Assembly: GCA_017544265.1 (NCBI GenBank)
Contig: JAFYEM010000030.1
Location: forward strand, 1-64,000
Reading direction: 5' to 3'
Length of the DNA stretch: 64,000 bases
From: Bacteroidales bacterium
GTDB taxonomy: Bacteria; Bacteroidota; Bacteroidia; Bacteroidales; UBA932
The notes beneath the pieces were generated by a model. It saw only the letters and a list, made by a program, of their open reading frames with translations, was not told the origin of the DNA and did no database searches. Shown in pieces: positions 7,855-30,511 of this stretch; the stretch's first letter is position 1, and every line of letters starts with the position of its first letter. Both the position numbers and the translations under genes were made by a program.

Positions 7855-8948
7855 GGCTTCATCTTGTTAAGTATCTGGGTGCCGCGGACCTTGTCGCCCT
7901 CGGCTAGACCTTCCCGGACTTCTATAGTCACGCCGTCTGAAATGCCGGTAGTGACATTGCGGCGCTCATAACCTTCGGCGCCGGGAATATAGACATAAGT
8001 CGAATCGCCTTCATACTGGATGGCGCTTTCGGGGATGGTCACGACGTCTTCGGCCCTCTGGAGGACTATCTCTGCGTTGGCGCTGTAGCCGGAACGGATG
8101 GTGGTTCCGGAAGGCACCTTCACGGAGGCCTTGATTTCAAAGAGATTTGTGCCGTTGGACTCGGTCGCCTTCGGGGCGATGTACTCCAGCGTGGCGTCGA
8201 AACTCAGGTCCTGAAGGGCTCCTACGGTAATCCTCACAGGCAGTCCGACTCCGATTCGGCCGACCTCGGTCTCGTCTATATTGCCGTCGAAAATCAGGTC
8301 GTCCATATTTGCGACGGTGGCTATCGTGGTGCCGTCGTTGAAGGTATTGGAGTTGATTACGGAATTGCCCACCTTGACCGGGATATCCAGGATAAGGCCC
8401 GAAATAGTGGAACGGATAAGGGTGGAACTGCCGGAGGCGTTGGACGAGGAAACACCGTCCCGGATGATTTCCAGGGACTCTTTCGAAGATGCGAGTTCCT
8501 CTTTCGCCTGCTTGAGGGCCTGGTCCACCCGCTCGAATTCATCGGCGCTCACGAGGGCCTTGTCATATAGGGCTTTCTCGCGGTCGAAGTTGGTCTGGGC
8601 CTGTTTCATGTTCACTTCCGCAAGGCGGACACGGCTCTGGGCGGAACTCAGCTGGCTCATGTCCGGAATCACCTTGACCTTGGCTATAATCTCGTCTTTC
8701 GCGACCATCTGGCCGGCATCCTTGTAGAGGTTGCAGATAATCCCGCTTATCTGGGGCTTGATGTTAACCTCGTCGCGGGGCTGGATCTTGCCGGTTACCA
8801 CGGTAGCCTTGGTGATGGTCCCGATCTTTGCCTCAAGCTCCTGGTACTGGGCTTCTTTGGGGCGGGAACGGCGGTACAGATAGACAAAGGTCCCGACAAA
8901 TACTGCCGCCACCAGCACTGCGATAATGTATTTTCCTAACTTCTTCAT
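7851..8948 (-). CDS. Periplasmic membrane-fusion (adaptor) protein, MacA/HlyD type
   Basis: A 365-residue adaptor that links an inner-membrane transporter to the TolC channel. One N-terminal membrane anchor (about residues 7-27) is followed by a barrel-sandwich half (EVNIKPQISGIICNLYKDAG, residues about 60-80), a coiled-coil hairpin (residues about 100-170, rich in Lys/Glu/Gln), the second barrel-sandwich half and a beta-barrel domain. The C-terminal region has VVTIPESAIQYEGDSTYVYI, typical of RND/MacA adaptors. It lies between the permease genes and the tolC-like gene. Confidence 0.9.
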   Translation of the reverse strand: MKKLGKYIIAVLVAAVFVGTFVYLYRRSRPKEAQYQELEAKIGTITKATVVTGKIQPRDEVNIKPQISGIICNLYKDAGQMVAKDEIIAKVKVIPDMSQLSSAQSRVRLAEVNMKQAQTNFDREKALYDKALVSADEFERVDQALKQAKEELASSKESLEIIRDGVSSSNASGSSTLIRSTISGLILDIPVKVGNSVINSNTFNDGTTIATVANMDDLIFDGNIDETEVGRIGVGLPVRITVGALQDLSFDATLEYIAPKATESNGTNLFEIKASVKVPSGTTIRSGYSANAEIVLQRAEDVVTIPESAIQYEGDSTYVYIPGAEGYERRNVTTGISDGVTIEVREGLAEGDKVRGTQILNKMKP

Positions 8949-12403: not shown

Positions 12404-13096
12404 ATGGAAAATGCACTGATACATTTTGCCGGCGCCGACATAATCAACGGCGAAAGCATTGTGATTTACGGCCTTGACATGGACGTGCTCAAGGGAGACC
12501 TCGTCTATATCGTAGGCAAGGTCGGAACCGGAAAGACATCTCTGATAAGGACTATAACCGCCGAGAACAAACTCCGGAGCGGAGAAGGCTGCGTCTGCGG
12601 TTACGACCTGCGCAATCTGAGGAAAAGGGACATTCCCTTCCTGCGCCGCCGCCTCGGCGTGGTTTTCCAGGATTTCCAACTGCTGAACGACCGCAGCGTG
12701 GAGGACAACCTGTCCTTCGTGCTGAAAGCCACCGGCTGGAAAGACGCCCATAAAATAGACGAAAGAATCGCTGAGGTGCTGGACGCAGTTGGAATGTCTA
12801 CGAAGGCCCACAAGATGCCTCACCAGCTTTCCGGAGGCGAGCAGCAGAGAATCGCAATCGCCCGCGCCATACTGAACTCCCCCGAGGTCATTATTGCGGA
12901 CGAACCCACCGGGAACCTGGATAAAGAGACCGCAGAAGGCATACTGAAACTGCTGAGCCGCCTCAACTCCGAAGGCACGGCCATAGTCATGGTCACCCAC
13001 AACCTTTCTATAGTCGAGCGCTACCCCGGCCGCGTTTTCGTCTGCGCCGACGAGCGCTGCAAGGAAATCGACAATGACCCTAAAAGCAAGATATGA
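12404..13096 (+). CDS. ftsE: Cell-division ATP-binding protein FtsE
   Basis: A 230-residue ABC ATPase that with FtsX couples the divisome to peptidoglycan hydrolases. Walker A is GKVGTGKTS, the Q-loop is VFQDFQLL, the signature LSGGEQQRIAIARA and Walker B VIIADEPTGNLD; the FtsE-like VEDNLSFVLKATGW follows the Q-loop. No ftsX is adjacent here; the next gene is nth, whose ATG at 13074 lies inside the ftsE 3' end (23-nt overlap). The assignment to FtsE rather than another small ABC ATPase rests on overall resemblance and the single-gene context, so LolD-like function is a minor alternative. Confidence 0.82.
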   Translation: MENALIHFAGADIINGESIVIYGLDMDVLKGDLVYIVGKVGTGKTSLIRTITAENKLRSGEGCVCGYDLRNLRKRDIPFLRRRLGVVFQDFQLLNDRSVEDNLSFVLKATGWKDAHKIDERIAEVLDAVGMSTKAHKMPHQLSGGEQQRIAIARAILNSPEVIIADEPTGNLDKETAEGILKLLSRLNSEGTAIVMVTHNLSIVERYPGRVFVCADERCKEIDNDPKSKI

Positions 13097-13706
13097 GGCC
13101 ATCGTAGGGTGGTTCCTGGAGAACCGGCCCCATGTGCAGAGCGAACTGGACTTTGCGGACAGTTTCCAGCTGCTGGTCGCGGTGGTTCTTTCGGCCCAGT
13201 GCACTGACAAGCGCGTCAATATGGTAACCCCGGAGCTTTTCCGGCGCTTCCCATCCCCGGCACAGCTTGCCGCTGCGACTCCCGAAGAAGTATATACATA
13301 TATAAAGAGCGTTTCCTACCCGAACAGCAAGGCGGAGCATCTTGTTGGGCTTGCGAAAGGTCTTGTGGAACGCTTCGGCGGGGAGGTCCCTTCGGACATA
13401 GACTCTCTGATGTCCCTTCCGGGTGTCGGGCGGAAGACCGCCAATGTGGTCGCATCCATTGTCTATAACCAACCGGTCATCGCGGTGGACACGCATGTAT
13501 TCAGGGTCGCCCGCAGGCTGGGGCTTTCGAAAGGCAGGACTCCGGAGGCCGTGGAAAAAGATCTCGAAAGACACATTGCCGCGGAGCACCGCCCCACTGC
13601 CCATCACTGGCTGATTCTACACGGTCGTTACGTCTGCACGGCCCGCTCGCCCAAATGTGAAGAATGTCCGCTCCGCGAGTGGTGCAAAGACTCCCCTGAC
13701 AAATAA
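13074..13706 (+). CDS. nth: Endonuclease III (DNA glycosylase/AP lyase)
   Basis: A 210-residue base-excision repair enzyme that removes oxidised pyrimidines and cleaves the abasic site. The helix-hairpin-helix motif LPGVGRKTANVV contains the catalytic Lys, and AVDTHVFRVARRLG supplies the catalytic Asp. A C-x6-C-x2-C-x5-C cluster at the C-terminus (CTARSPKCEECPLREWC) binds the 4Fe-4S cluster. The start at 13074 gives the usual N-terminus (MTLKARYEAIVGWF) and overlaps ftsE by 23 nt in another frame, so expression is likely coupled to ftsE. Confidence 0.96.
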   Translation: MTLKARYEAIVGWFLENRPHVQSELDFADSFQLLVAVVLSAQCTDKRVNMVTPELFRRFPSPAQLAAATPEEVYTYIKSVSYPNSKAEHLVGLAKGLVERFGGEVPSDIDSLMSLPGVGRKTANVVASIVYNQPVIAVDTHVFRVARRLGLSKGRTPEAVEKDLERHIAAEHRPTAHHWLILHGRYVCTARSPKCEECPLREWCKDSPDK

Positions 13707-13732
13707 AAAAACCCGGCCCTGAAGGACCGGGG
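13704..13732 (-). terminator. Rho-independent terminator of the ptb/ackA operon
   Basis: Read on the minus strand: a GC-rich stem CCCCGGTCC/GGGCCGGG-type hairpin with small loop (plus 13712-13732), followed directly by a run of seven T. It sits just past the ptb stop codon at 13741. On the plus strand no T-run follows, so it is unlikely to be an efficient terminator for nth. Confidence 0.75.
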
Positions 13733-13740
13733 AACGTTCA

Positions 13741-14649
13741 TTATTTCACGAACATCACGGCTTCTGCGATGCTCAGCAGTTTGGTGTCCACCGTATCCGC
13801 ACGGGAAGCGAGCACGCAGGGGACCTTGGTCCCCACCAGCATTCCGGCCTGACGGACGCCCTTGGCAAGTTTGGAATTGGTCTTCCAGAAGACATTCGCA
13901 GACTCGATATTCGGGAACAGCAGGCAGTCCGCATCGCCGGCTACCGGGCTGACCAGCTTCTTGATTTCCACGGATTCCCTGTCTATAGCGACGTCCAGCG
14001 CGAGCGGGCCGTCACCGATGCAGCCCTTTATCTGGCCGCGGTCGCACATCTTGGCGAGCATGGCGCCCTCGATGCAGGCCGGCATGGAATCGAGCATCTG
14101 CTCGGAAGCGGCGACAAAGGCAATCTTGGGCTTGTCTATGCCGAAACTGCGGGCTACGCCCACCACAAAGCCGGCCATCTTCACCTTCTGGCGGAAGTCC
14201 GGAGCCGGAATCACGGCCATGTCACTCATGAATATGAGCTTGTGATAGCAGGGATTCTCGAGCACTGCAACGTGGCTCAGCAGGCCCTTGGGAGGGAGAA
14301 GTCCGGTTTCCTTGTTGAGGATGGCGCGGAGGAATTTGTCCGTGGAGCAGAGGCCCTTCATAAGCACGTCACCCTCGCCGTCATGGACCATACGGACGGC
14401 CTCGGCGACGGCCTTCATCTCGTCCTTGATGTCCACGATATCGAATCTGGACTTGTCCAGGCTGCAGTCAGAGCAGACTTTTGCAATCAGGTCGGAGTCG
14501 CCCACGAGGGTAACTTTCACGAATGCGAGTTCCACTGCCTTGTAGGCAGCTTCGATAGTGTGGGAATCCACGCCCCACGCGGCAATCATTCTCTTGCAGA
14601 TACCTTTAATCTTGAGCTCCGCAAGCAGTTCGTTGAAATTCTTTATCAT
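13741..14649 (-). CDS. ptb: Phosphate butyryltransferase-type phosphotransacylase
   Basis: A 302-residue member of the PTA/PTB family, which interconverts acyl-CoA and acyl phosphate. Length and sequence fit Ptb (about 300 aa) better than Pta (about 330 aa): it begins MIKNFNELL, and has GDVLMKGLCSTDKFLRAILN, LSHVAVLENP and the strongly conserved DRGQIKGCIGDGPLALDVA. Its partner, 4 nt upstream, is a clear acetate kinase rather than a butyrate kinase. Acyl preference (acetyl, butyryl, isobutyryl) cannot be determined from the sequence; with AckA the pair would make an acyl phosphate and then ATP by substrate-level phosphorylation. Confidence 0.88.
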   Translation of the reverse strand: MIKNFNELLAELKIKGICKRMIAAWGVDSHTIEAAYKAVELAFVKVTLVGDSDLIAKVCSDCSLDKSRFDIVDIKDEMKAVAEAVRMVHDGEGDVLMKGLCSTDKFLRAILNKETGLLPPKGLLSHVAVLENPCYHKLIFMSDMAVIPAPDFRQKVKMAGFVVGVARSFGIDKPKIAFVAASEQMLDSMPACIEGAMLAKMCDRGQIKGCIGDGPLALDVAIDRESVEIKKLVSPVAGDADCLLFPNIESANVFWKTNSKLAKGVRQAGMLVGTKVPCVLASRADTVDTKLLSIAEAVMFVK

Positions 14650-16941: not shown

Positions 16942-17524
16942 AGGGAAACAGAAGGGCGTACTCGCGGTACTTGTCCAGAACGCCTTCCACATAGGCTTTG
17001 GTCGCGTTGGACGGTCCCCCGGGGGACAGTTTGATTATTTCATCCCATCGGCTGCCGTCAAGCCCCCGGGCTTCGGCATTCTCAATGTTCCGGAGCATCT
17101 TGCCCTCCCCGGCATTATAAGCGGCGAGAGCGAATTTCAGACATTCCAGAGTGTCCGCGGCCATCGGGGAAAACATCTTCTGCATACGTCTCAGGTAGCG
17201 GGTCCCCACCTGGAGATTAGTCGCGGGGTCCAGCAGGGAATCCGGTTCATAGCGGGCGGAGCGGACCTGCATAAGCCCGGTTGCGCCGCGGTCGGAAGAT
17301 GCGCTGATATGGAAACGGGACTCGTGGTAGATTATGGCCGCCACCAGCCTCCAGTCCACCCCCGCGGCATCGCTGGCGCTGCGGATCATTTCGTCATAGA
17401 CACTTATGGGGCCCGGCTCGATGAATTCTTCCACGGGCTGCTCGGACAAAGGCTCCCGGTTTGCCGTAAACGGGACTGTCATCAGGCCGAGCAGGACCAG
17501 TATTATGCGGAAGGCTGTTCTCAT
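16925..17524 (-). CDS. Lytic transglycosylase, Slt/MltE-like
   Basis: A 199-residue exported murein-cleaving enzyme. An N-terminal hydrophobic segment (FRIILVLLGLMTVPF) is followed by a goose-lysozyme-like domain with the catalytic Glu68 in IIYHESRF, then GATGLMQV (about 81-88) and AYNAG (about 131-135), the three hallmarks of family 1 transglycosylases. The C-terminus has ATKAYVEGVLDKYREY. Its start overlaps the stop of the upstream porin gene by 4 nt, so the two are coupled. Confidence 0.92.
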   Translation of the reverse strand: MRTAFRIILVLLGLMTVPFTANREPLSEQPVEEFIEPGPISVYDEMIRSASDAAGVDWRLVAAIIYHESRFHISASSDRGATGLMQVRSARYEPDSLLDPATNLQVGTRYLRRMQKMFSPMAADTLECLKFALAAYNAGEGKMLRNIENAEARGLDGSRWDEIIKLSPGGPSNATKAYVEGVLDKYREYALLFPSTSSK

Positions 17525-20265
17525 CGCTGCATCATTCCGCCCACAGCTCCCTTGAGGCCACCCAGACCGCCGCCGAGTCCACCGCCTCCGCCCATTCCGG
17601 AACCGGCATGCTCGCTAAGCGTCCTGTTGCGTCCGCTCAGCACGTAGAACGGCCAGGAAATACCTAATTTTACGCAACGTTCGGTGCGTATATAGCCATG
17701 GGCCGAGAAATAGTCGTGCTTGTCCGAAGGCCAGCCCTGGCCGACGTTTTCAACCTTTATGAATACGCAGGCGCGCTTCCACTGGACATTCAGGAAAACG
17801 TCGAAAATCGGCACGGCGCCATAGACATAAGAATTCTGGCTGTGGAAAACGCCGGCTACGGGATTAAACGCCGGGGCGTTCCATTTGGTGGTGAAGAAGC
17901 CGTTCAGACCTATCTGCATCTTCATGACGTCTTCGCGGACAATATTGAACTGGACGTACCAGCGGAGGTTCAGAGCCAGCATCGGGAGTGGCAGCACATT
18001 CGGGTCCGAAGAAAGCTGGAAGAGTACTTTGTTGTCCAGATGGACTATTTTGCCGAAGGTGAAATTCTTCTCCAGGGAGGCGCTCAGCACGCTCATCGGC
18101 TTTGTATTCTGACGCACTATTCCCAGGGTATCGTAGTAAATGTTGTTTGCCAGCAGGGCATAGTCCGCAGACAGGGAAAGATGCCATTCGGGAACGCTGA
18201 ACGAACCTCCGACCTTGGTGGTGGAAATCTTCAGGAAGTCGTTGTCCCACTTGTAGTGGTTGGAGAAGAAATGCTGCTCGAAGAAAGTCGGTTCCCGCAG
18301 GTCCGTGGAGAAATGGGCCCTGATGGTCATAGGGCTGTCCGGACGGCGGCGGAAAGGATAGATATTCACGCCTGCGTCCGCCTTTACGAAGAAATCATTA
18401 CGTTCCTTTCCCGCGAAGGTGTACTGCCCGAGGGCGTTCCAGTCCACGAAACGGGAGATCTGGCCTTCCACGCCCGCATAGGTATAGACAGAGTTCCAGT
18501 TCGTATTGGAGGGCTTTCGGATATAACTGCCGGGGGCTGGCATGTAGTGCATCAGCAGTTTATCGCCTATACCGCCCTCGATTTTGGATACTACTGAATG
18601 TTCTCCCCACGGCTGGAAGCGCAGGAAAATGCGGTTGTCCAGACGCGCCACCCTCAGCGAGTCGGCGCTCTTGGAGGGATTTATGAAATAGTTGTCATGG
18701 TAATAGGCGGAGGCGGTCTTGTTGGAAGCCGACACGGCGTCGGTATAGCATTTGGTATAGACCGAATATTCTGTGCTGTGGCCTATGAAAACTGTTGTCT
18801 CATTGTTGTTTACACTGTCCGGCGGAGCGACGTAGGTGGAATCCTTCCTGCGGAACCAGTCCTTGATGGTGCTCATCGGCAGGCGGTAGCTGTGATCTAT
18901 GAAGAGGGTGTTTTTCTTGTAGGTGTTGGACGCCCCGGAAAGGTTCACTGCCACCTCGCGGGCATCGACGGTAGTATCCCTTATCCAGAAATTGTCCGTC
19001 ACACCGCCGTTCTCCTCGCGCTCCACCTTGTTGTGGATGAAGCCAGCATGGGCCAGATAGCGCTTGCCGAGGTAATTCGCAGCTATCACAGTGGCCTTGT
19101 TGACGGTCTTTTCATTGGTGAGGATACCGTTGCCCCCGTAACGCTTGTACTCCAGGGTGAAGTTGAACGAGGGGGTGATGTTCTGGGTGGTGAAGAGACG
19201 GATATTGTCGGATTCCTTGGAAGAGGTCGAAAGCAGGGTTCCGTAGTACTCCAGCTCAGTGTACGGAGTCTTGGTGTTGAACATCGGAAGCGTCTGCGGT
19301 GTATAGGTCCATGAAGAATAGGGTTCATAGAAAGGAACGCCTCCCTCATCGTCGGTACGCTTGAAATAATTGTAAGTCTGAACTGCGGAACCGGCCATAC
19401 CGAGCCAGGTGGCACCCAGGTCGCGCTTCATGAAGGGATAGTCGTTGAAACGGTAGTTAAACGTGGTATCCCAGTCTTCCAGCGTAATCCTGTTGAATTC
19501 CCTGTCATGCTTCCAGGAAATAAGGCGCTTGTAATAGTACTCCTTCGGCACAAAAGAACTCTCCAGAATCCGCGGAGTATTTTCGACTATGCTGTCCCGT
19601 ATGGCTTTGAGGCTGTCCCGCGCGCTGAGAATGCTGTCCTGGCGGCGCAGAAGTGCCGGAAGTTTCTGCTCATAGTCATACTTGCGGCGCTCTTTCTTGC
19701 TGAGTGACGAGTACCAGGCATTGAATTTTGCAATTGCCGCGGCGGTGGAATCGCTCAGATAAAGGGAGTCTATGATAACCCAGTCGGTGGAGTCGCCGGC
19801 AGCTTTCAGGGAATCGACCACGATGCGGTGGGTCAGCGAATCCTTCGTAGCGACATACCATTTATAGAGGAATGGGTCTATGGTTTTGAGGCTGTCGGGG
19901 ACTTTCATGGTGTCGCGGGCGGTGATTTTCGGCATCGTGTCCATGGCATCTTCTGCGAAAAGGTCGAAATCGTCATCGTCCGCCGTTTTGCTCGTGTAGA
20001 TACGCGCTTTTGTCGTGTCTATTCCCGCCTTTGTCGTGTCTATCGCGCCGGCGTCAGTGGTGTCCGCCGGGCCTTTTAAGGGTGTCGATGGCCCGGCGGA
20101 CACCACTGCCGCCGAGTCCACGCGCACGGTGTCGACAGACACACTTACCCCTTCGAATTCGAAGGAGCGGTGCTGCTGCTTCACCGGATGTATGCCCACG
20201 CTGTGCGCAAGCACCGTCACTACGGCAGCAATCGGCAAAGCTATATTCGACCAAAAAGCTTTCAT
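17521..20265 (-). CDS. Putative porin with disordered N-terminal linker
   Basis: A 914-residue outer-membrane protein of the Bacteroidota putative-porin type. A signal peptide (MKAFWSNIALPIAAVVTVLAHS) is followed by a low-complexity Ser/Thr/Asp-rich linker (residues about 40-130: repeated DTTKA, acidic DDDDFDLF), an all-beta barrel with many aromatic strands, and a glycine-rich tail (GMGGGGGLGGGLGG). The linker carries an 18-bp perfect inverted repeat around a 16-nt loop (20056-20107), one of the element family described here. It is co-transcribed with the lytic transglycosylase downstream, and its promoter box lies only 6 nt before the ATG. Transport substrate unknown. Confidence 0.8.
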   Translation of the reverse strand: MKAFWSNIALPIAAVVTVLAHSVGIHPVKQQHRSFEFEGVSVSVDTVRVDSAAVVSAGPSTPLKGPADTTDAGAIDTTKAGIDTTKARIYTSKTADDDDFDLFAEDAMDTMPKITARDTMKVPDSLKTIDPFLYKWYVATKDSLTHRIVVDSLKAAGDSTDWVIIDSLYLSDSTAAAIAKFNAWYSSLSKKERRKYDYEQKLPALLRRQDSILSARDSLKAIRDSIVENTPRILESSFVPKEYYYKRLISWKHDREFNRITLEDWDTTFNYRFNDYPFMKRDLGATWLGMAGSAVQTYNYFKRTDDEGGVPFYEPYSSWTYTPQTLPMFNTKTPYTELEYYGTLLSTSSKESDNIRLFTTQNITPSFNFTLEYKRYGGNGILTNEKTVNKATVIAANYLGKRYLAHAGFIHNKVEREENGGVTDNFWIRDTTVDAREVAVNLSGASNTYKKNTLFIDHSYRLPMSTIKDWFRRKDSTYVAPPDSVNNNETTVFIGHSTEYSVYTKCYTDAVSASNKTASAYYHDNYFINPSKSADSLRVARLDNRIFLRFQPWGEHSVVSKIEGGIGDKLLMHYMPAPGSYIRKPSNTNWNSVYTYAGVEGQISRFVDWNALGQYTFAGKERNDFFVKADAGVNIYPFRRRPDSPMTIRAHFSTDLREPTFFEQHFFSNHYKWDNDFLKISTTKVGGSFSVPEWHLSLSADYALLANNIYYDTLGIVRQNTKPMSVLSASLEKNFTFGKIVHLDNKVLFQLSSDPNVLPLPMLALNLRWYVQFNIVREDVMKMQIGLNGFFTTKWNAPAFNPVAGVFHSQNSYVYGAVPIFDVFLNVQWKRACVFIKVENVGQGWPSDKHDYFSAHGYIRTERCVKLGISWPFYVLSGRNRTLSEHAGSGMGGGGGLGGGLGGLKGAVGGMMQR
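20056..20107 (-). repeat. In-frame palindromic element, loop type B, copy 1 (porin)
   Basis: Perfect 18-bp arms (20056-20073 AGTGGTGTCCGCCGGGCC and its complement at 20090-20107) flank a 16-nt loop TTTTAAGGGTGTCGAT (20074-20089). On the coding strand it gives STPLK in the loop, flanked by AAVVSAGP and GPADTTDA. It lies in the disordered linker of the porin. The loop shares its last ten bases with the other type B copies. Confidence 0.85.
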
Positions 20266-20271
20266 AAACCT

Positions 20272-20280
20272 GCAAATATA
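20272..20280 (-). promoter_or_regulatory. -7 box abutting the porin start (leaderless candidate)
   Basis: Minus strand reads TATATTTGC and ends 6 nt before the ATG at 20265. A TTG at 20301-20303 (minus strand), 20 nt further upstream, fits the -33 element. The rest of the 77-bp gap to atpG shows no clear terminator. Confidence 0.65.
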
Positions 20281-20342
20281 ACATTTCTTTGCCGAATCCC
20301 CAATATTTGAACAGGGTGGTGACTGGAAGACGGAATGGATGG

Positions 20343-21308
20343 TTACATCCCGGAAGAAGCGAGATCGAGGATTTCAGAGGTGATTTTCTGCTGTCGAGCC
20401 TTGTTGTATTCGAGAGTTATTTCGTGCAGCAGTTCCTCACCATTATCCGTTGCAGTCTGCATAGCCACAAGCCTTGCAGCATGCTCGGCGGCGTTGCTGT
20501 CGAGAAGCGCTGCGAAGAGGCGAACTTTAAGCGTCAGAGGGAGAAGCCTGTCTATAGCTTCGGACGGAGAGGGTTCTATGATGTACTCTGAAGGCCAGTT
20601 ATAAGACGCGGCGTTGACGTTCCGGGGGGCATAGTCCCCCTGTTCAGCCCCACGGGGCGGGAGCGACGCGGTCGAAACGTCCGGGCCGAGGAAGATTTCA
20701 GTGAGGACCTCCTGGCGGGAAGTCGTAACAAAGTGATTATAGATTAGATAGACACGGCTGAAACGGCCGCGGGCACAGTCAGACATGAATTCGGAGGCTA
20801 AAACCGAAGCATCCTCGTATTTGGGCTTGGAGGACATCTGGTTCAGGTCCTTAGGGGAAGGATAACCGCAGCGGCGCATCGTATCCGCCATCTTTTTGCC
20901 TATGGAAAATACAGTCACGTCGCCAGACTGCGCTTTGGCACATTCCAACGCCGCCTTTACGGCATTTGCATTGAAACCTCCGCAGAGTGACGAGTTCGAA
21001 GCCACCGCGATTATTGCCACTGCGCCTGTCGCTGCTGCGTCAAAGGCACCCGCCGAACCTGAATAGGGTGTCGATGGTTCGGCATGTGCCTTTGCCGCAT
21101 CCCCGCCGCCGGAAGACATGGCGGCAGGAGCGGCGGATTGTAGGTCACGGAGCATTGAGGAGAGAGTATCGCGGTATGGCAGAAGGGCGCGGACGGACTT
21201 TTCCGCCGAAATCAGTTTCGCCGAAGCCACGAGCTTCATCGCCGAAGTAATCTTCAGCGTCCCTTTGACGGAATTAATCCTCACCTTGGTCTCCTTCAGC
21301 GTAGCCAT
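20343..21308 (-). CDS. atpG: ATP synthase F1 subunit gamma with two palindromic-element insertions
   Basis: A 321-residue rotor subunit, longer than the usual 285-290. The N-terminal helix (RINSVKGTLKITSAMKLVAS) and C-terminal helix (AARLVAMQTATDNGEELL) that form the coiled-coil shaft are intact, as is SNSSLCGGFN of the central fold. Two extra segments are seen. One, residues about 62-95 (SSGGGDAAKAHAEPSTPYSG), sits just before the first core strand. The other, residues about 210-230 (SLPPRGAEQGDYAPRNVNAA), sits in the loop before YIIEPSP. Both coincide with palindromic elements (21035-21100 and 20608-20669), so the inserts are extra surface loops in an otherwise normal gamma subunit. Last gene of the atp operon. 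Confidence 0.96.
   Translation of the reverse strand: MATLKETKVRINSVKGTLKITSAMKLVASAKLISAEKSVRALLPYRDTLSSMLRDLQSAAPAAMSSGGGDAAKAHAEPSTPYSGSAGAFDAAATGAVAIIAVASNSSLCGGFNANAVKAALECAKAQSGDVTVFSIGKKMADTMRRCGYPSPKDLNQMSSKPKYEDASVLASEFMSDCARGRFSRVYLIYNHFVTTSRQEVLTEIFLGPDVSTASLPPRGAEQGDYAPRNVNAASYNWPSEYIIEPSPSEAIDRLLPLTLKVRLFAALLDSNAAEHAARLVAMQTATDNGEELLHEITLEYNKARQQKITSEILDLASSGM
20608..20669 (-). repeat. In-frame palindromic element, loop type A, copy 2 (atpG)
   Basis: Arms 20608-20630 and 20647-20669 flank the 16-nt loop at 20631-20646, which reads TGAACAGGGGGACTAT on the coding strand. It encodes PRGAEQGDYAPRN. Pairing next to the loop is strong (GGGGC/GCCCC); the outer left arm is less perfect than in other copies, having lost the TGACG half of the TGACG/CGTCA pair. 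Confidence 0.88.
21035..21100 (-). repeat. In-frame palindromic element, loop type B, copy 3 (atpG)
   Basis: Nearly complete 19-bp arms (21041-21059 and 21076-21094; two mismatches), extendable by several bp outwards, flank loop TGAATAGGGTGTCGAT (plus strand 21060-21075). It encodes EPSTPYSGS. Stem sequence is entirely different from copies 1, 4 and 6 although the loop is identical to copy 6. The adjacent stretch 21088-21118 matches 27435-27468 next to copy 6 in manA. Confidence 0.88.
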
Positions 21309-21322
21309 TCAAAGATACAAAG

Positions 21323-22912
21323 TCAAATAATCAGCGTCGATACGACCTCGGCAGCAACCTTTTCGATGACAGCACAGATCTTATCATCCAGTTTCCCTTC
21401 AGAAAGCGGCTCCAGCACATCATCGGAATACATAGCATGCATCCTCTCAAGGAAAGCATCCTGGAACTCATCCACCTTCGAAAGCGGAAGGTCCGAAAGC
21501 AGTGCGTGCGTGCCGCAATAAAGCACCGCCACCTGCTCCCCTACCGTCATAGGCGAATACTGCGGCTGAACCAGCAGTCGGGCGTTCTTGCGCCCCTTGT
21601 CCAGCGCCATGGCAGTAACCTTGTCAAGATCGGAAGAGAACTTGGAGAACGCCTCGAGTTCACTGTACTGCGCCTGGTCAATCTTCAAAGTACCAGCGAC
21701 CTTCTTCATGCTCCTCAACTGGGCCGAGCCCCCCACACGGGACACCGAGATACCCACATTGATAGCAGGGCGGATACCAGCGTTGAAGAGCGAAGTCTCC
21801 AGGTAAATCTGACCGTCAGTGATGGAAATCACATTAGTCGGAATATAGGCCGAGACGTCGCCGGACTGCGTTTCTATGATTGGCAGCGCCGTGAGCGACC
21901 CGCCCCCGCGTACCTTTCCCTTCAGAGATTCAGGAAGGTCGTTCATCTGAGAAGCCACCGACTCCTCGGAAATAATCTTGGCAGCCCTTTCCAGAAGACG
22001 CGAATGCAGATAGAAAATATCCCCCGGATAAGCCTCGCGGCCCGAAGGACGCCTTAAAATCAGCGAAACCTCGCGATAGGCCACCGCCTGCTTGGAGAGG
22101 TCGTCATAGACAACCAGCGCATGGCGGCCCGTATCGCGGAAATACTCGCCTATTGCAGCGCCGGCAAAGGGCGCGTAATACTGCAGGCTGGCCGGATCAG
22201 CGGCTGTCGCGGCGACCACGACCGTATAGTCCATGGCCCCCTTTTCGCGGAGCGTATCCACGATAGACGCGACCGTCGAGCCCTTCTGGCCCACGGCGAC
22301 ATAGACACAATAGACAGGATCGCCCGCGAGGTAATTGCTTCGCTGATTGATGATTGTGTCTATCGCGATGGCTGTTTTGCCGGTCTGGCGGTCGCCGATG
22401 ATGAGTTCCCGCTGGCCGCGTCCGATGGGAATCATCGCGTCTATGGCCTTGATTCCCGTCTGAAGCGGTTCATTGACGCTCTGTCGGAAAATGACTCCCG
22501 GCGCCTTGCGCTCCAGCGGCATGACCACTTTCTCTCCGGCGATGTCGCCCTTTCCGTCAAGCGGCGTTCCGAGCGGATCCACCACCCGGCCCAGCATTCC
22601 TTCACTCACGCCTATGGAGGCAATCCTGCCGGTGCGGCGCACAGTCATACCCTCCTTGACCTTATCCACCGAACCAAGCAGCGCCACGCCCACATTTTCC
22701 GGCTCCAGGTTCATCACAATTCCGTTGATGCGGTCGGGGCCGAATTCCAAGAGTTCCCCCGCCTCGGCGTCCAGAAGGCCATAGACACGGGCCACTCCGT
22801 CGGAGACCTGAAGCACCTTGCCGGTCTCGTCGAAACGAAGTTCCCCCTCCATAGCCTTCAGCTGCTCAAGCAACACGTCGGAAAGTTCGTTGGGTTTTAT
22901 GGTATTCCTCAT
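21323..22912 (-). CDS. atpA: ATP synthase F1 subunit alpha
   Basis: A 529-residue F1 subunit carrying the non-catalytic nucleotide sites and the arginine finger. Walker A is [13 protein letters not shown], and the conserved region [20 protein letters not shown], the alpha/beta signature [17 protein letters not shown] and the N-terminal GIVMNLE are all present. It overlaps the atpH stop by 4 nt and is followed by atpG after 14 nt. No palindromic element is present in this gene. Confidence 0.98.
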
Positions 22913-23469
22913 ACGATTCTTCTGTTATTGTCTATGTATGTGCGGCGTATGTCCTCAAGGGCAGTGCGCACGCTCGCGTCCATCATATAGTCGTCTGTTT
23001 CAAAGACAAACCCTCCGATAAGGGTCGGGTCCGTCTCGGTGGAGATAATCGCCTTGCAGCCGGTGGCCTCATAGACCTTGTCCCGAATATAATCCAGAAG
23101 CTGCTCCGTCGGCGGAACCACCGACTTGAGATGCCCATAGACCAGTTTCTGCTGCCTGTGATACAGCTCTATGAAATCGTGGAACATAAGGCGGATAAGG
23201 CCTATGCGCTCCTGCTTGATGACAAGGCGGATGAAGCGTTCAGTCTCAGGGGCCAGGGCGCCGCTTCGGACCGCGGCGCGGAAGAGTGAAATCTTCCTCT
23301 CGGCGCTGACTCCTTCCGGGGCGTCCACCATCAAAGCAAAATCCTTTATGGAACTCAACGAATCCTGAAGACGCATAATATCATCGCACACCCTTTCTCC
23401 GCCGCCCGTACAGGTGACATACTTCAGAAGGGACAGCGCATAGCGCCTGGCAATGATACTTGAATCCAT
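22909..23469 (-). CDS. atpH: ATP synthase F1 subunit delta (OSCP)
   Basis: A 186-residue peripheral-stalk subunit that joins F1 to the b subunits. The N-terminal helical domain begins [18 protein letters not shown], and the C-terminal conserved strand region contains [30 protein letters not shown], typical of the delta family. Its start shares one base with the atpF stop region, and its end overlaps the atpA start by 4 nt. Confidence 0.96.
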
Positions 23470-23978
23470 TATTCCGCAGGCCTGGGTTTGGCGCAGGCCT
23501 CATCCACGATTTTGTTCAGATAGTCAGTCTGGGCCTCATCGGAAACCAGCCGGTCACGGATAATGCGTTCCGCGACAGCGACCGATACCACGGCGACCTC
23601 CCGCCGGATATCCCTGAGTGCAGCCTCCTTCTCCTCGGCGATTTGTTTGCGGGCGGTGGCGAGTATCTTCTGCGCCTCATCCTTCGCGTCCTCGCGGGCC
23701 TTGTCTATGATTTCGCGGCGGGACTCCCCCGCTTCGGCAATCATACGGGCCTGCTCGGCGGAAGCTTCCGCAAGAATCTTTTTCTGCTTCCGGACAGTCT
23801 CGTTGAGACGGCGCTCAATTTCCTCCGCGTCACGAAGCGATTTCTCGATCTTCGCATTCCGGTTCTCCACCATGGATGTTATGACGGGGAAGCCGAATTT
23901 AGCCAGCAGGAAGAACAGGAGGCCGAAAATGACCACCATCCAGAACAACAGACCGGTATCCGGAGTAATCAGGTTCAT
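23469..23978 (-). CDS. atpF: ATP synthase Fo subunit b
   Basis: A 169-residue peripheral-stalk subunit: one N-terminal membrane helix (LLFWMVVIFGLLFFLLAKFGFP) followed by a long charged amphipathic helix (NAKIEKSLRDAEEIERRLNE and onwards) that dimerises as a right-handed coiled coil. It lies between atpE and atpH with a 3-nt gap to the former. Confidence 0.96.
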   Translation of the reverse strand: MNLITPDTGLLFWMVVIFGLLFFLLAKFGFPVITSMVENRNAKIEKSLRDAEEIERRLNETVRKQKKILAEASAEQARMIAEAGESRREIIDKAREDAKDEAQKILATARKQIAEEKEAALRDIRREVAVVSVAVAERIIRDRLVSDEAQTDYLNKIVDEACAKPRPAE

Positions 23979-23981
23979 ATC

Positions 23982-24239
23982 CTACAGAATCAGGGTAAGG
24001 AAGCAGACGATAATGGCGAAAAGAGCGGCGCCCTCCACCATACCTGCGGCGATAATCATGGAAGTACGGAGATTGCCGGCAGATTCAGGCTGACGGGCAA
24101 TAGCCTCCATAGTGTGCTGGCCGATTTTGCCGATACCGAAAGCGGCGGCCAACGCGGCGACAGCTGCGCCGATGGCGGCGCCCACTTTTCCGAGTGCGGC
24201 ACCTGCAGCCGCCTGGAGAATAATTGCTGAAAGTAACAT
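23982..24239 (-). CDS. atpE: ATP synthase Fo subunit c
   Basis: An 85-residue hairpin of two membrane helices joined by the polar loop ARQPE, forming the c-ring rotor. The first helix is Ala/Gly rich. The ion-binding carboxylate lies in the second helix (GMVEGAALF). The Glu is followed by Gly rather than Ser/Thr, and the position equivalent to the Gln ligand of sodium-type c subunits is hydrophobic, so proton coupling is the likelier reading. Confidence 0.96.
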   Translation of the reverse strand: MLLSAIILQAAAGAALGKVGAAIGAAVAALAAAFGIGKIGQHTMEAIARQPESAGNLRTSMIIAAGMVEGAALFAIIVCFLTLIL

Positions 24240-24243
24240 ATCT

Positions 24244-25403
24244 TTAATGATTTTGTCTTGATAATCCTATATAAATAGATGAAAGCATGGTGAAGACATA
24301 GGCCTGGATAAAGGCCACAAGGCACTCCAGAGCATCCAGGAACACACCGAAAAGCACCGAGACCACAGTCATGGAGCTCCCAAGAAGCGGGCCGTACTTG
24401 GCCATTATGAATATCACGCAGACCATCGCAAGTATCATAACGTGACCGGCGAGCATATTCGCAAAAAGTCGTATCGTGAGCGAAACCGGCTTCATCAGGG
24501 CGCTGAAAACCTCTATCACAGGCATGATCGGCTTGAGGAAACCAGGCACCTCGGGAAGGAAAATTTCCTTGTAGTAGTGCTTGTTGCCAAAAAGATTGAC
24601 GGTAAGGAAGGTGGCGACGGCGAGGACCATCGTCACGGCGATATTGCCCGTGAGGTTGGCTCCGCCGGGGAAGAAGGGTATGATTCCGAGAAAGTTGTTC
24701 AGGAGTATGAAGAAAAAGGCAGTTTCCAGAAACGGCAGATAGCGCCTGTAGTCCTTGCCTATATTCTCGACAGCCATTGTATGGACCATCATCACCAGCG
24801 GTTCCAGCAACGCCGCCACCCCCCTGGGAGCCTCCTTCAGCACGTCGTGACGGCGGTACCAGCGCGCCGAAAGCAGCACCAGCAGCAGAAGCAGCGCCGA
24901 ACTCATCATCAGCGACAGCACATTCTTGGTGATGGAGATGTCGAAAGGCCTTTTTATGCCGTCAGGCGTAATTTCGAATATCTTTTCATCTTCGCCAATG
25001 AAAAAGCCCTGATACTGCTTTCCATCAAGCTTTTCGCTCGAAAAGCAGTGCCAGCCTGAGTATTTGCTCCAGACTATGACCGGCAGCGGTATAGCCACCG
25101 GGCGCCCCTTCCACTCGGTGATATGCCACTCGTGCGAATCGCCGATATGCGAGAAAATTATCTCCGCGATGTCCACTTCTCCCTCCGCCTCGTCCTGGTC
25201 CCGGCCGCCGGAAGACAGGGGCTGTTCGGCTGAATAGGGTGCCGATGCCGCCGGGGCACTGTCTTCCACCGTCTGCGCGGCAGTAGCGGCGGTGATGTTC
25301 CGGGGGGCATAGTCCCCCTGTTCAGCCCCACGGGGCGTCAGCGACGCGGCGGGAGACGACGCTGTGAAGGGCAGCAGAAAGGACAGTATGAGGGACAGGA
25401 GAA

Positions 25404-25407
<4 letters not shown>
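24244..25407 (-). CDS. atpB: ATP synthase Fo subunit a with N-terminal palindromic-element insertion
   Basis: A 387-residue membrane subunit forming the proton half-channels. As in other Bacteroidota, a signal-like N-terminus and a periplasmic extracytoplasmic domain (ILFSHIGDSHEWHI-like region) precede the membrane part; the latter contains the essential-Arg helix (SLTIRLFANMLAGHVM) and the C-terminal helix (FIQAYVFTMLSSIYIGL). Immediately after the signal segment lies a 48-codon insert made of a type A and a type B element (25204-25347), encoding SLTPRGAEQGDYAPRN and ASAPYSAEQPLSSGGR. The insert sits in a region that should be exposed on the periplasmic side. Its 3' end is 4 nt from atpE. 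Confidence 0.96.
25204..25273 (-). repeat. In-frame palindromic element, loop type B, copy 4 (atpB)
   Basis: Arms 25204-25230 and 25247-25273 flank loop TGAATAGGGTGCCGAT (25231-25246, plus strand). Paired core GGAAGACAG/CTGTCTTCC. It encodes ASAPYSAE. The stem resembles copy 6 (manA) but differs at positions on both arms. It is separated by 12 bp from the type A copy 5. Confidence 0.87.
25286..25347 (-). repeat. In-frame palindromic element, loop type A, copy 5 (atpB)
   Basis: Arms 25286-25308 and 25325-25347 flank the loop at 25309-25324, reading TGAACAGGGGGACTAT on the coding strand. It encodes SLTPRGAEQGDYAPRNITAA. Most of the 23 arm positions pair. With copy 4 it forms an A-spacer-B composite of 144 bp (48 codons). 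Confidence 0.88.
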
Positions 25408-27190
<1,783 letters not shown>

Positions 27191-27217
27191 CACAATTTTT
27201 TCTGCAATAACAACAGG

Positions 27218-28501
27218 TCAGAGGCTCACTACGAGGAGGTTTGCCTCAGGCGAAGGCAGCACCTTCAGGGAAGTGGCACAGGCGGGAATCATCAGGGTTT
27301 CGCCGCGGCGAAGCTCCGTCCGGTGCCCCTTCGTAGGGCCATCTGCAGGTATCCCGGTCTCGATTTCAGCACAGCCTTCAGTGCACATAAGCACCGTGAA
27401 CGACTCCCCTGCTTTGCAAGGCACCGTCAACCACGCCTTCGCGGCATCTGCCCGGCCGCCGGAAGACAGGGGCCGTTCGGCTGAATAGGGTGTCGATGCC
27501 GCCCAGCCCCTGTCTTCCGCCGTCTGCGCCCTAGAGCTGGCGGTGTTGACGTTCTGGGGGGCATAGTCCCCCTGTTCAGCCCCACAAGGCGTCAACACCG
27601 ACGCCGCGTGCAGCACTGAGACGTTAAAGTATGGACATGACACGATGGGTGTCAGGGTGTTCAGAGGAACGTCGGGATGGGATTTGGCATTCTCTACGAC
27701 GGAGAAGTCAGTCGCCTCGAGGGCATCGTCGATATGAAGCGCACGAGGGCGGCCGTCAAGCCCAGGACGATTGTAGTCATAGATACGGTAGGTGCAGTCG
27801 GAAGACTGCTGGATCTCCGCCACGAAGCAGCCGCGCCCGATAGCGTGCACACGCCCCGCAGGAAGGAAAAACACATCGCCCGGATGCACCTCGTAGCTAC
27901 CCAGCCGCTCCATAATGCCGCCGTCGAGCGCCAGGGAACGAAACTCTTCCGCCTTCGTCGGAACCGAAAAGCCGCTGAAAAGCCTTGCCCCCGGCTCAGC
28001 ATCCACGACGTACCACATTTCAGTCTTGCCGAAGGGAAATCCCCTGCGGCGCGCCATCTCGTCATCCGGATGCACCTGCACCGAAAGGTCATCGCCTGCA
28101 TCGATAAACTTGAACAGCAGCGGGAATCCCGCGGCGGTGACGTTCCGGGGAGCATAGTCCCCCTGTTCAGCTCCACGGGGCGTCAGCGACGCGGAAGAGG
28201 CGGGTGGCAGGGTTCCGGAGGCATCGACACACTTTTTAGCCTCAGGGGCCCTGCCATCCGACGCCGCGGAGCCTTTGCGCCCGAGCAGATCGACACCAAA
28301 GGCGTCAATGAGCTCCGGCAGAGTCTTCCCCTTGAGGGGCCCCTCCGCCACCACCGAATCATCCCCCGGAACGGCCGAAAGTTCCCAACTCTCGCCCAAG
28401 GGTTCGCCGGAATAGTCAATAGACTTAAATGCGGGAAGCTTATCGCCACCCCATACCTTACTCTTGAGTATTGAATTGAATTTAAGAGGATAGAGTGTCA
28501 T
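27218..28501 (-). CDS. manA: Mannose-6-phosphate isomerase with three element insertions
   Basis: A 427-residue class I enzyme that interconverts mannose 6-phosphate and fructose 6-phosphate; family members in this phylum are usually near 320 residues. Zinc-site and core motifs are intact: FKFIDAGDDLSVQVHPDDE, GKTEMWYV, PAGRVHAIGRG and CTYRIYDYNRPG. The extra length comes largely from two inserts: one between the N-terminal part and FPLLFKFID (SLTPRGAEQGDYAPRNVTAA), and a longer one near residue 315 (GAEQGDYAPQN then STPYSAERPLSSGGR) before the last beta domain. Both coincide with palindromic elements. The enzyme should still be functional because no active-site segment is interrupted. It follows the M3 peptidase gene by 6 bp. 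Confidence 0.94.
   Translation of the reverse strand: MTLYPLKFNSILKSKVWGGDKLPAFKSIDYSGEPLGESWELSAVPGDDSVVAEGPLKGKTLPELIDAFGVDLLGRKGSAASDGRAPEAKKCVDASGTLPPASSASLTPRGAEQGDYAPRNVTAAGFPLLFKFIDAGDDLSVQVHPDDEMARRRGFPFGKTEMWYVVDAEPGARLFSGFSVPTKAEEFRSLALDGGIMERLGSYEVHPGDVFFLPAGRVHAIGRGCFVAEIQQSSDCTYRIYDYNRPGLDGRPRALHIDDALEATDFSVVENAKSHPDVPLNTLTPIVSCPYFNVSVLHAASVLTPCGAEQGDYAPQNVNTASSRAQTAEDRGWAASTPYSAERPLSSGGRADAAKAWLTVPCKAGESFTVLMCTEGCAEIETGIPADGPTKGHRTELRRGETLMIPACATSLKVLPSPEANLLVVSL
27455..27524 (-). repeat. In-frame palindromic element, loop type B, copy 6 (manA)
   Basis: Arms 27455-27481 and 27498-27524 flank loop TGAATAGGGTGTCGAT (27482-27497, plus strand), with a perfect 13-bp core GGAAGACAGGGGC/GCCCCTGTCTTCC. 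It encodes STPYSAERPLSSGG. It lies 14 bp from the type A copy 7. Confidence 0.88.
27539..27602 (-). repeat. In-frame palindromic element, loop type A, copy 7 (manA)
   Basis: Arms 27539-27562 and 27579-27602 flank the loop at 27563-27578 (TGAACAGGGGGACTAT on the coding strand). The outer stem is a perfect 11-bp CGGTGTTGACG/CGTCAACACCG, where other copies have a different but also paired sequence. It encodes LTPCGAEQGDYAPQNVN. Confidence 0.88.
28131..28192 (-). repeat. In-frame palindromic element, loop type A, copy 8 (manA)
   Basis: Arms 28131-28153 and 28170-28192 flank the loop at 28154-28169 (TGAACAGGGGGACTAT on the coding strand). The loop-closing pair is GGAGC/GCTCC instead of GGGGC/GCCCC, a compensatory change on both sides. 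It encodes SLTPRGAEQGDYAPRNVTAA. Confidence 0.88.
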
Positions 28502-28507
28502 AGGCAG

Positions 28508-30511
28508 TCATATCAAACCACGCGAACGAAGTATAGACCCGGGATCAGGCTCGGAGCCGCAGAAACTGCGGAACAGAGTCATAGGCTCCTCGCTGCCGCC
28601 CTTCTCGAGGAAGGTGCAGCGGAACTCGCGGGCGAGAGCCTGGTTGAAGATACCTTCCCTCTCGAAACGCTCGAAAGCATTCAGGTCCAGCACCTCCGAC
28701 CAGAGATAGCCATAGTAGCCGCAGGCATAACCGCCGCCGAAGACATGGTTGAAATAGGTGGAACGGTAGCGCGGGATAATCTCGTCGATAAGCCCCATCT
28801 CTGCGCAGACCTTCTGCTCGAAAGCACGGATGGACTCAGCGTCAGTGAAAGAAGCAAGCTCTTCCGCGCTCAGCATGTGCCATTTCAAATCCAGAATCGA
28901 GGCGGCGCATAGTTCACCGGTCGTAAAGCCCTGGTTGAACTTGAGGGAAGCCTTGATTTTCTCCACAAGCTCGGAGGGAATAAGTTCCCCGCTGCGGTAA
29001 TCGCGGGCATAGAGCGAAAGAATCTCTTTCTGGAAAGCCCAGTTCTCGTTGAACTGGGAGAACATCTCCACGAAATCCCGCTTGACAGAAGTTCCGCTGA
29101 TATCCACGTAGCGGCACTGCGAGAAGAAACCGTGAAGTGCGTGTCCGAACTCATGGAAGGCCGTCTGGACCTCATCCACAGTGAGAAGCGAAGGAACTTC
29201 ATCCGTGGCAGGAGGGAAATTGCAGACATTCACGATAATCGGGCGGACACCCTCCTGCTGCTCGCGGAAATTGTTCATCCACGCGCCCCCGCGCTTAGAT
29301 TCGCGGGAGAAATAGTCAGCATAGAAAATACCGAGCAGATTATCCCCGTCATACAGCGCGAAAGGTTTCACCACAGGATTATAGACCTCCACTTCGGGAG
29401 CCGGCACCACGCGGATGCCATAGACCTTTTCTGCGGCGGCAAAGACGCCTTTTAGCACGCTGTCGGCACTGAAATAGGGCTTTGTGAGGCTCTCGTCAAG
29501 ATCGAAGCGGAGAGTGCGGAGCTTTTCAGCATAATAGAACCAGTCCCAGGGCTCGATCTTCGAGCCTTCAGGGAGAAGCCCGGCGGCAATGTCGGCGTCC
29601 ATAATCTCCTGCATCGCGGCGACATCCTCGCGGGCCTTCGCCATGGACGCGTCCATGATGGGCTTCAGGAAATTGTCCACCGCCACGGGGTCGCCGGCCA
29701 TCTTGTTGGAGAGCAGGAAAGAGGCGGCATTGGGATAACCCAGCAGGTCGGCCTGTTCGGTGCGGAGTTTCAGTATCTCCAGGCAGAGCAGGTTGTTGTC
29801 GTTCTCATTGCCGTTGTTGCCGCGGGAAGAATAGGCCCTGAAGGCTTTCTCGCGGGCGTCACGGTCCTTGCAGCTGGTCATATAGGCAGGATATGCGCTC
29901 ACCGTTACGCCGGTCGCGGCCTTGAAGGCGTTGTTCTCCGCAAGGAGGTTGTTGCCGAATTTCTGCTGAAGTGCCGCAAGCGAGGCGTTGATCTCCTTGA
30001 ACCGGGCCTGAGCCTCCGGAGCCAGGGCGACGCCGTTGCGCTCGAAGGTCTCATAGAGCTTGTTCACGAGCATCTGCTGCTCCCTGTCCAGGGAAGACAT
30101 GTCGTCGTGGACAGCCTTCACGCGGGCAAAGAAGTCGGGGTCCATGAAAATTTCATCGGAGGCGGGGGTGATAAGGGCCGTGATTTCCTCTTCCAAGGCC
30201 TGGATGGAGGGCGATGAATCAGATTCGGAAATATTGTAGAACACCCCTACGACTTTGGCGAGCAGCTCGCCGGATTTTTCATAGGCCGCTATGGTGTTTT
30301 CAAATGTAGGGGCATCGGGGCAGGCTTTGATTGCCTCGACGGCCTCTTTCTGCTGACGGATTCCCTCTTTGACGGCTGGGATGTAGTCGGCTTCACTGAT
30401 TTTGGAGAATGGAGGCGTTCCGAAGGGAGTGTTCCACTCCTGAAAGAAAATGTTGGTGTTACAAGCAGTTATCATAACCGCACAAATAATTACTGATGAA
30501 AGTCTTTTCAT
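28508..30511 (-). CDS. M3-family zinc oligopeptidase lipoprotein (Dcp-like)
   Basis: A 667-residue metallopeptidase that cleaves short peptides. The zinc motif HEFGH lies at residues 453-457 in TAFHEFGHALHGFFSQC, and the third ligand Glu lies about 25 residues downstream. The N-terminus (MKRLSSVIICAVMITAC) is a lipoprotein signal, so the enzyme is anchored in the envelope, probably facing the periplasm. Length and FNENWAFQKEIL, YFNHVFGGGYACGYYGYLWS are typical of the peptidyl-dipeptidase Dcp / oligopeptidase A group. No -7 box was recognised directly upstream. Confidence 0.92.
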   Translation of the reverse strand: MKRLSSVIICAVMITACNTNIFFQEWNTPFGTPPFSKISEADYIPAVKEGIRQQKEAVEAIKACPDAPTFENTIAAYEKSGELLAKVVGVFYNISESDSSPSIQALEEEITALITPASDEIFMDPDFFARVKAVHDDMSSLDREQQMLVNKLYETFERNGVALAPEAQARFKEINASLAALQQKFGNNLLAENNAFKAATGVTVSAYPAYMTSCKDRDAREKAFRAYSSRGNNGNENDNNLLCLEILKLRTEQADLLGYPNAASFLLSNKMAGDPVAVDNFLKPIMDASMAKAREDVAAMQEIMDADIAAGLLPEGSKIEPWDWFYYAEKLRTLRFDLDESLTKPYFSADSVLKGVFAAAEKVYGIRVVPAPEVEVYNPVVKPFALYDGDNLLGIFYADYFSRESKRGGAWMNNFREQQEGVRPIIVNVCNFPPATDEVPSLLTVDEVQTAFHEFGHALHGFFSQCRYVDISGTSVKRDFVEMFSQFNENWAFQKEILSLYARDYRSGELIPSELVEKIKASLKFNQGFTTGELCAASILDLKWHMLSAEELASFTDAESIRAFEQKVCAEMGLIDEIIPRYRSTYFNHVFGGGYACGYYGYLWSEVLDLNAFERFEREGIFNQALAREFRCTFLEKGGSEEPMTLFRSFCGSEPDPGSILRSRGLI

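Follow-up and report, generated by a model that had tools for sequence, protein, structure and literature searches.

Rickettsia and Wolbachia are the main known sources of short palindromic repeats carried in frame within protein genes, alongside occasional intragenic repetitive extragenic palindromes (REPs). Rickettsia palindromic elements (RPEs) and their Wolbachia counterparts are found in unrelated genes at solvent-exposed positions, with several families per lineage (PMC3767692, PMC10969869, PMC6649704); RPEs usually measure 100–150 bp, a table in PMC3767692 listing individual ones as short as 84, and a passage of PMC6649704 says that the Rickettsia elements lose repeat identity over time. 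Here we describe a family of hairpin elements from the first 64,000 nucleotides (the window) of contig JAFYEM010000030.1 in the Bacteroidales bacterium assembly GCA_017544265.1 (UBA932 lineage). These repeats have a conserved loop and a covarying stem, are read in one codon phase within genes, lie in linkers of AtpG and CysS, are present or absent at two intergenic sites of sister species, and have related families in one genus. Like RPEs, they are short in-frame palindromes in exposed stretches of unrelated proteins, but they occur in another phylum, fall short of the RPE length at 70 nt (16-nt core) or 78 nt (38-nt core), and keep a sequence-conserved core with the stem held as a shape. Likened by description and not by sequence, they appear to work like RPEs but are not filed within the RPE families.

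Other described palindromes share some of these features. GTAG- and CGTC-tagged REPs are mostly intergenic and sometimes genic, with uvrA among their hosts; the CGTC type is reported from five phyla, Bacteroidetes included, and the stems are 5–13 or 8–9 bp with a terminal GTAG or CGTC tag (all as described in parts of PMC3733652). The present elements are likewise palindromic, sometimes genic, and hosted by DNA repair genes such as uvrA, but their stems reach ~20–27 bp and the conserved part is the loop: 29 aligned copies are invariant in the loop only and pair out to 27 bp. REPs associated with REP-associated tyrosine transposases (RAYTs) are similar in the species-specific spread of hairpins, and RAYT-like genes are present in the genus, but the hairpins beside those genes are of other kinds. 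In Volvox organelle DNA a loop, often TAAA or TTTA, recurs among differing stems as it does here (PMC2670323, in part), but those loops are usually 3–5 nt and lie in noncoding landscapes. Inverted repeats in protein genes of Nematomorpha mitochondria also keep their arms matching over evolution, but these arms are longer, up to 142 bp, and the passages on them in PMC6649704 describe no common core. Searches of the open-licence PubMed Central literature turned up no title or abstract dealing with elements of this kind in Bacteroidales. What sets them apart from the known kinds is the rule of core by sequence, stem by shape.

A repeat family with a conserved loop and a covarying stem

The earlier note on this DNA had listed eight hairpins, each with a 16-nt loop between arms of about 18–27 nt, inside the porin, atpG, atpB and manA frames, and had given the lengths of the enlarged AtpG, AtpB and ManA. 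The eight hairpins and the three protein lengths are as it described (Table 1), and the count was one short: a ninth element in manA brings that gene to four. Seven window positions, all of them elements, have a 16-nt loop flanked by arms that pair at 17 or more of 23 positions, compared with 0 or 1 in 20 base-shuffled windows; elements 2 and 4 are weaker palindromes that fall below this cut and are matched by the covariance model described below. Allowing up to three mismatches, the loop pattern has 20 hits in the window (shuffles: mean 7.86, maximum 14).

Table 1. Hairpin elements in the window and the genes that carry them. Model E values of these elements are not independent, because all nine were among the 29 copies used for the covariance model.
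Feature	Position	Strand	Core	Host and context	Score
Element 1	20047–20116	+	20074–20089, TTTTAAGGGTGTCGAT	antisense in porin	71.8 bits, E 1.6e-13; RNA fold −56 kcal/mol, z −8.41
Element 2	20604–20673	−	20631–20646	codirectional in atpG, residues 212–235	E 4.5e-12
Element 3	21033–21102	+	21060–21075	antisense in atpG, residues 69–92	E 6.3e-12
Element 4	25204–25273	+	25231–25246	antisense, atpB N-terminal part	E 1.0e-10
Element 5	25282–25351	−	25309–25324	codirectional, atpB N-terminal part	E 2.8e-13
Element 6	27455–27524	+	27482–27497	antisense in manA	E 1.4e-14
Element 7	27536–27605	−	27563–27578	codirectional in manA	E 7.5e-14
Element 8	28127–28196	−	28154–28169	codirectional in manA, directly ahead of FPLLFKFID	E 1.7e-14
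Element 9	28196–28265	−	28223–28238, TAAAAAGTGTGTCGAT	codirectional in manA, adjoins element 8	E 4.5e-14
Porin_10 family protein, 914 aa	17521–20265	−		host gene	
atpG (F1 gamma), 321 aa	20343–21308	−		host gene	
atpB (F0 subunit a), 387 aa	24244–25407	−		host gene; elements ahead of Pfam domain (168–380)	
manA-like mannose-6-phosphate isomerase, 427 aa	27218–28501	−		host gene; PMI_typeI_cat above cut-off, TIGR00218 below	

A loop-like TGAACAGGGTGGTGAC without a stem lies between porin and atpG (window 20308–20323) and is probably there by chance.

The window is the start of contig 10 of a 1.87-Mb assembly in 65 contigs (90.5% complete), throughout which the loop pattern with two mismatches occurs at 82 places, compared with 18 for a reversed control. 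We built a covariance model (27-bp stem, 16-nt loop) from 29 copies aligned without gaps over 70 columns, chosen from 33 candidates already filtered by pairing. When 150 of 1024 first-look candidates were scored, the model gave at least 79 matches at E ≤ 1 in this genome; removal of nine second-strand matches and one partial match left 69 places, and removal of three marginal ones left at least 66, a few of which are damaged units or hybrids, such as those on contig 10 at 65523 and contig 31 at 80314. Many of the non-genic copies lie near gene ends, and many form groups of two or three units ~73 bp apart. The nearest of them make up a three-unit intergenic array 1.4 kb past the window end (contig 10, 65446–65661), with the units again ~73 bp apart and the middle one a hybrid with mismatched arms. 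On contig 49, the same ordered triple of elements (+,−,−) occurs in neighbouring ABC ATPase and DnaX genes (12728–12950 and 14306–14528), as if a block had been copied between them.

Pairs form in 78.9% of stem cells across the 29 copies, and both-side changes occur at 26 of the 27 pairs; double-changed cells number 174, versus 63.5 in shuffles and 37–66 in slid controls. The choice of these copies by pairing favours this result; samples taken by loop alone and by the 38-nt core of a second family alone agree with it. Among 30 loci chosen by loop, 23 reach 14 or more of 23 arm pairs, and the seven that do not are three stemless loci, one half unit, one hybrid and two offset by one base; when 30 of the 33 places with the 38-nt core were read, 29 had 16–20 of 20 arm pairs and one (L165) had 8. 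Own arms pair at 18.97 of 20 positions, and swapped arms at 9.82. Invariant columns are confined to the loop, at the fixed letters of T....AGGGKGNCKAT, bar departures in two or three copies. In the 52 copies that are 70 nt long, pairing is 18.75 of 23 positions when each copy keeps its own arms and 11.60 when arms are swapped between copies. The variable stem of the earlier note is partly right for this genome: its stems fall into a few subfamilies, with between-copy identity over the 52 copies of 0.775 in the loop and 0.53 and 0.56 in the arms.

Related families across the genus

At E ≤ 1e-3, with 12 candidates scored per genome, the covariance model matches at least 21 of 400 genomes of the genus, own genome included; an earlier model search had matched 2 of 61, again including the own genome. 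Hairpins are visible at 26 of the 28 loci read. The loop type TDAAAAGAGGGCCGAT stands in hairpins of 18 of 20 other matched genomes, mostly within long open reading frames (ORFs), and the hairpins of genomes G087 and G098 have a different, 32-nt loop.

A second family has the 38-nt core GGAGCATTTGCCCGTACAGGGTCGCGAAGCGACGCGGA and an element length of 78 nt. A 32-nt pattern of this core, searched with up to three mismatches, was found at 33 places spread over 7 of 61 genomes (control 0), and a 24-nt piece, allowed one mismatch, was present in 39 of 400 genomes (one hit for the reversed control); there is no copy of the core in the window's own genome. In G019 (10 of 13 copies read), core identity is 1.000 and arm identity 0.50 between copies, with a pairing of 0.965 within a copy; across G069 (6 copies), G028 (5) and G061 (3), core identity is 0.95–1.00, arm identity 0.41–0.55 and pairing 0.94–0.98. 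Over the 29 paired copies, stem pairing is 0.83–1.00 for 20 bp and then drops to ~0.3. In some copies the stem continues into the core ends with matched changes. The core itself holds a small inner hairpin, GTCGC-GAA-GCGAC, with a variant GTTGC-GAA-GCAAC.

An exact 22-nt pattern (core plus three fixed arm pairs) matched 34 stretches among ~85,000 species genomes. Thirteen of these stretches pair at 15–25 of 25 arm positions; they come from 8 metagenome-assembled genomes, and every one carries a Bacteroidales or Bacteroidia title. The remaining 21, which span many phyla and include eight from Prevotella, Prevotellaceae, Hoylesella and Alistipes, pair at 5–13 of 25. The genus may be Cryptobacteroides. 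A phage or plasmid origin is unsupported: viral contigs held no exact match to either core pattern, and phage and plasmid records held no match to one three-unit array.

Other repeats were seen in congeners. A TTTTCCCAAGTTTTAT loop family exceeds its reversed control in G072 (17 vs 0), G071 (13 vs 2) and G023 (16 vs 4). Contig 23 of G359 carries double hairpins of GCTGATGGTGGTCCA-like repeats at ~8001–8093 and 13655–13750, the second of which G093 and G389 lack at the syntenic sites.

Codon phase and linker positions of genic copies

The earlier note had placed the elements strictly inside genes, which holds within the window only. By a codon score trained on window genes, 30 of the 66 places in the genome are genic (17 codirectional, 13 antisense) and 36, mostly intergenic, are not. 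Twenty-seven of the 30 lie in an ORF that is also accepted by a whole-ORF score or by Pfam (9 in the window, 18 at other loci), leaving three copies without such backing (contig 4 at 99193, contig 8 at 157, contig 52 at 46984); four more elements, under the codon threshold, lie inside a GT2 glycosyltransferase and a DUF1573 protein. Additional hosts identified by Pfam are an M20 peptidase, MiaA, CysS, an ABC ATPase, DnaX, an MMPL/SecD-like protein and UvrA, and one 673-aa host protein has no Pfam match. The repeats are therefore palindromes in frame within unrelated protein genes, as RPEs are.

Of the genic copies, 28 are exactly 70 nt long, and 27 of these share one codon phase; the exception starts two codons into its own open frame. 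Stop codons alone are insufficient to explain this phase: the six readings are stop-free in 18–32 of the 52 elements, and the antisense reading in use is the least often open (18). In its content of Ala, Pro, Ser, Thr and Gly the used phase exceeds all others (0.58 codirectional and 0.68 antisense, versus 0.38–0.49 elsewhere), and in Cys and Trp it is the lowest; these figures include the genic copies themselves. Loops with TTAATAG, which puts a stop in the used phase in both orientations, occur in 0 of 30 genic copies versus 14 of 36 others. Within the 38-nt family, 29 copies have an open reading and 27 exceed the coding threshold, 26 of these in one phase (14 codirectional, 12 antisense).

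The AtpG proteins of 25 congeners are 41–51% identical to the window protein, and both elements fall in the two stretches of greatest length variation. A structure model of AtpG (26 sequences) has a mean predicted local distance difference test score (pLDDT) of 85; blocks at residues 61–90 and 211–240, which contain the residues encoded by the elements, score 49–57 and 49–53, and other blocks score 74–98, mostly above 80. As modeled, the AtpG inserts thus occupy linker or surface positions. Hairpins with a different loop lie inside the matched gene at 7 of 29 congener atpG loci. In G019, near-identical peptides MADQVGGDVSVMPGPDRAS and MADQVGHDVSVMPGTDRAS occupy both AtpG linkers, suggesting a further in-frame repeat.

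In CysS, the element sits in the linker between the catalytic and DALR domains. CysS was matched in 98 of 101 genomes; the linker set of 93 comprised 91 of these 98 together with G359 and G389, both already known carriers, and 82 linkers were parsed. A strong hairpin is present in 10 of the 82 and absent from 72: four have a 16-nt-type core (G389, G359, G093, G101), four have the 38-nt core (two per orientation), and two have other loops. The window genome's own CysS, outside the 82, also carries an element. The CysS linkers of G000, G088 and G081 contain another repeat, GTCATTTCGAGCG...GTCGAGAAATCT, read in frame as VISSxVEKS in G088 and G081, and repeats related to this type are present in G359.

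Core conservation, stem covariation and a location in housekeeping genes would also suit hairpins that serve the host, as regulatory RNA or DNA structures or as protein-binding sites, and are kept by host selection. RNA folds of six window elements, which span −26.5 to −56 kcal/mol, point the same way in that five beat their shuffles (three with z < −6, two with z about −2.3 and −2.5); element 2, a weak palindrome, folds no better than its own shuffles (z 0.26). We nevertheless consider a host function very improbable, as copies of both families stand in both orientations relative to genes, copy number runs from none detected to 66 within one genus, the same linkers hold different hairpins or none, and all five Rfam matches in window positions 17000–30000 fall under their gathering cut-offs.

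Gain, loss and a candidate mechanism

The sister species G163 and G164 are 81–93% identical across their longer shared segments, and a comparison of ten G163 loci with 703 kb of G164 covered the flanks at two. One intergenic site carries an element with the 38-nt core in G164 and lacks it in G163, and another carries one in G163 and lacks it in G164; in both cases the core and both arms are missing from the empty site. Presence and absence between relatives, which the earlier note had named as support for a mobile family, is therefore found between genes at these two sites and not inside any gene. In one gene tail where G163 has an element, G164 has instead an Ala-rich stretch containing two ATCGGCCTTCTT motifs. 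More broadly, elements are not fixed at the same sites in all relatives, the lengths of the AtpG and CysS linkers vary, and further copies exist both in this genome and, as related families, in congeners, so that the wider data support the earlier idea of an in-frame palindrome family that resembles RPEs and follows a different rule.

Stems are both kept and lost in resident copies. The CysS elements of G359, G093 and G389 look orthologous. Within the first 22 pairs, three both-side changes (two of them adjacent) and one one-sided change distinguish G389 from G359, and two one-sided changes distinguish G093 from G359. Several one-sided changes also separate G163 and G164 orthologues. A matched 3-nt symmetric indel between the G389 and G359 stems was considered and rejected, the differences being substitutions.

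The paired CysS changes would be expected if replication template switching made hairpins and kept them in place without transposition, with locus-specific stems copied from local sequence, and such creation and maintenance of hairpins is reported in PMC8794818 (in part). This account is improbable, and template switching as the sole process is disfavoured: it cannot put an identical 38-nt core at many loci, the core and both arms are absent together at the two empty intergenic sites, and the stems share a weak consensus and stop at ~20–22 bp with no run-on into host flank. The last two of these observations led us to drop, as a general rule, the idea that the arms are an inverted copy of the host flank, which the overlap of the CysS downstream arm with conserved S-P-A-V codons had suggested; the weak arm consensus can itself encode S-P-S. 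That the elements are assembly or binning artefacts is next to negligible as an explanation: the assemblies are drafts (65 contigs here), but the elements lie in intact conserved ORFs, in one phase and in several genomes, and close species share them at orthologous sites.

We think it probable that the elements are short (70–78 bp), non-autonomous mobile palindromes whose core is read by sequence and whose stem is read by shape, tolerated in linkers. The conserved core, the pairing-constrained stem, the two orientations, the species-specific core variants, and gain and loss all point to mobility through an extruded hairpin. Each element would consist of a 16- or 38-nt core recognised by sequence, within a ~20–27-bp stem kept as a hairpin more than as a sequence. 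A trans-acting enzyme may read the extruded single-strand hairpin and place copies elsewhere, between genes and within them and in both orientations, with the core variant of each species tracking its own enzyme. Genic survivors would be copies in the one phase that encodes a peptide rich in Ala, Pro, Ser, Thr and Gly and poor in Cys and Trp, in linkers that tolerate added length. Lineages still moving would have to retain core and stem, and host genes would retain those insertions that are read in the tolerated phase. Template switching from arm to arm during replication probably helps to keep resident stems paired.

Several observations weigh against this mobile-palindrome reading. A search for an autonomous partner, which covered the PF01797 family, found no mobiliser: the own genome's only Y1/RAYT-like match is under both family cut-offs (20 bits against 23 for Pfam, 30 against 80 for NCBIfam), and neither core occurs in a hairpin near RAYT-like genes in any of the 32 sources scanned (L099, the 30 best congener matches and one G093 stretch). 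Stems in the own genome are not free of sequence, the copies sharing subfamilies, and resident copies also decay, as the one-sided changes in G163/G164 and G093/G359 orthologues show. A disorder score does not pick out the used phase (0.18 and 0.22, versus 0.14–0.25 in other readings). The possible target-site repeats at two sister-species sites, CATA and AAATAA, are at best suggestive of the target-site duplication expected of a miniature inverted-repeat transposable element (MITE). At the DNA level, no gene yielded a clean empty site; the nearest listed congeners are ~77% identical to the window.

That the elements are REP-like repeats mobilised by RAYT or IS200/IS605-type Y1 transposases of these genomes is a reading that we regard as rather unlikely. 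Dissemination of REPs with TnpA-REP is on record (PMC8266576, in part), PF01797 matches occur in 78 of 101 congener genomes (over cut-off in 70), and one ORF of the own genome weakly hits NCBIfam REP_Tyr_transpos at 30.1 bits. This ORF scores under the curated cut-offs, however, and lies ~4.2 kb from the nearest element; hairpins are present in 23 of the 32 scanned sources, none with either core, and the eight short core-like motifs in these sources have just 4–9 of 20 arm pairs. With no cored hairpin beside RAYT-like genes in the sources scanned, RAYT as the mobiliser is unsupported. Contig 4 near 103.5 kb (L099:1399–2283) encodes a 294-aa RAYT-like ORF with nearby hairpins of its own, AAGTGGGCACGGTTGG and a degenerate copy.

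Returning to the mobile-palindrome reading, we tentatively suggest that the elements could represent a distinct class in which putative machinery recognises the core from its sequence and the stem from its shape, which would let stems diverge widely and still pair, and of which several families have radiated in one gut Bacteroidales genus, lengthening the linkers of essential proteins. If core and shape are the recognition rule, this points to a hairpin-reading recombinase yet to be found. The CysS linker, which holds one family in some species and another in others, amounts to a natural experiment on how insertions are tolerated, and a genus of more than 400 sequenced species with several families, close species pairs, and gain and loss offers many replicates on movement, survival by phase and the reshaping of proteins.

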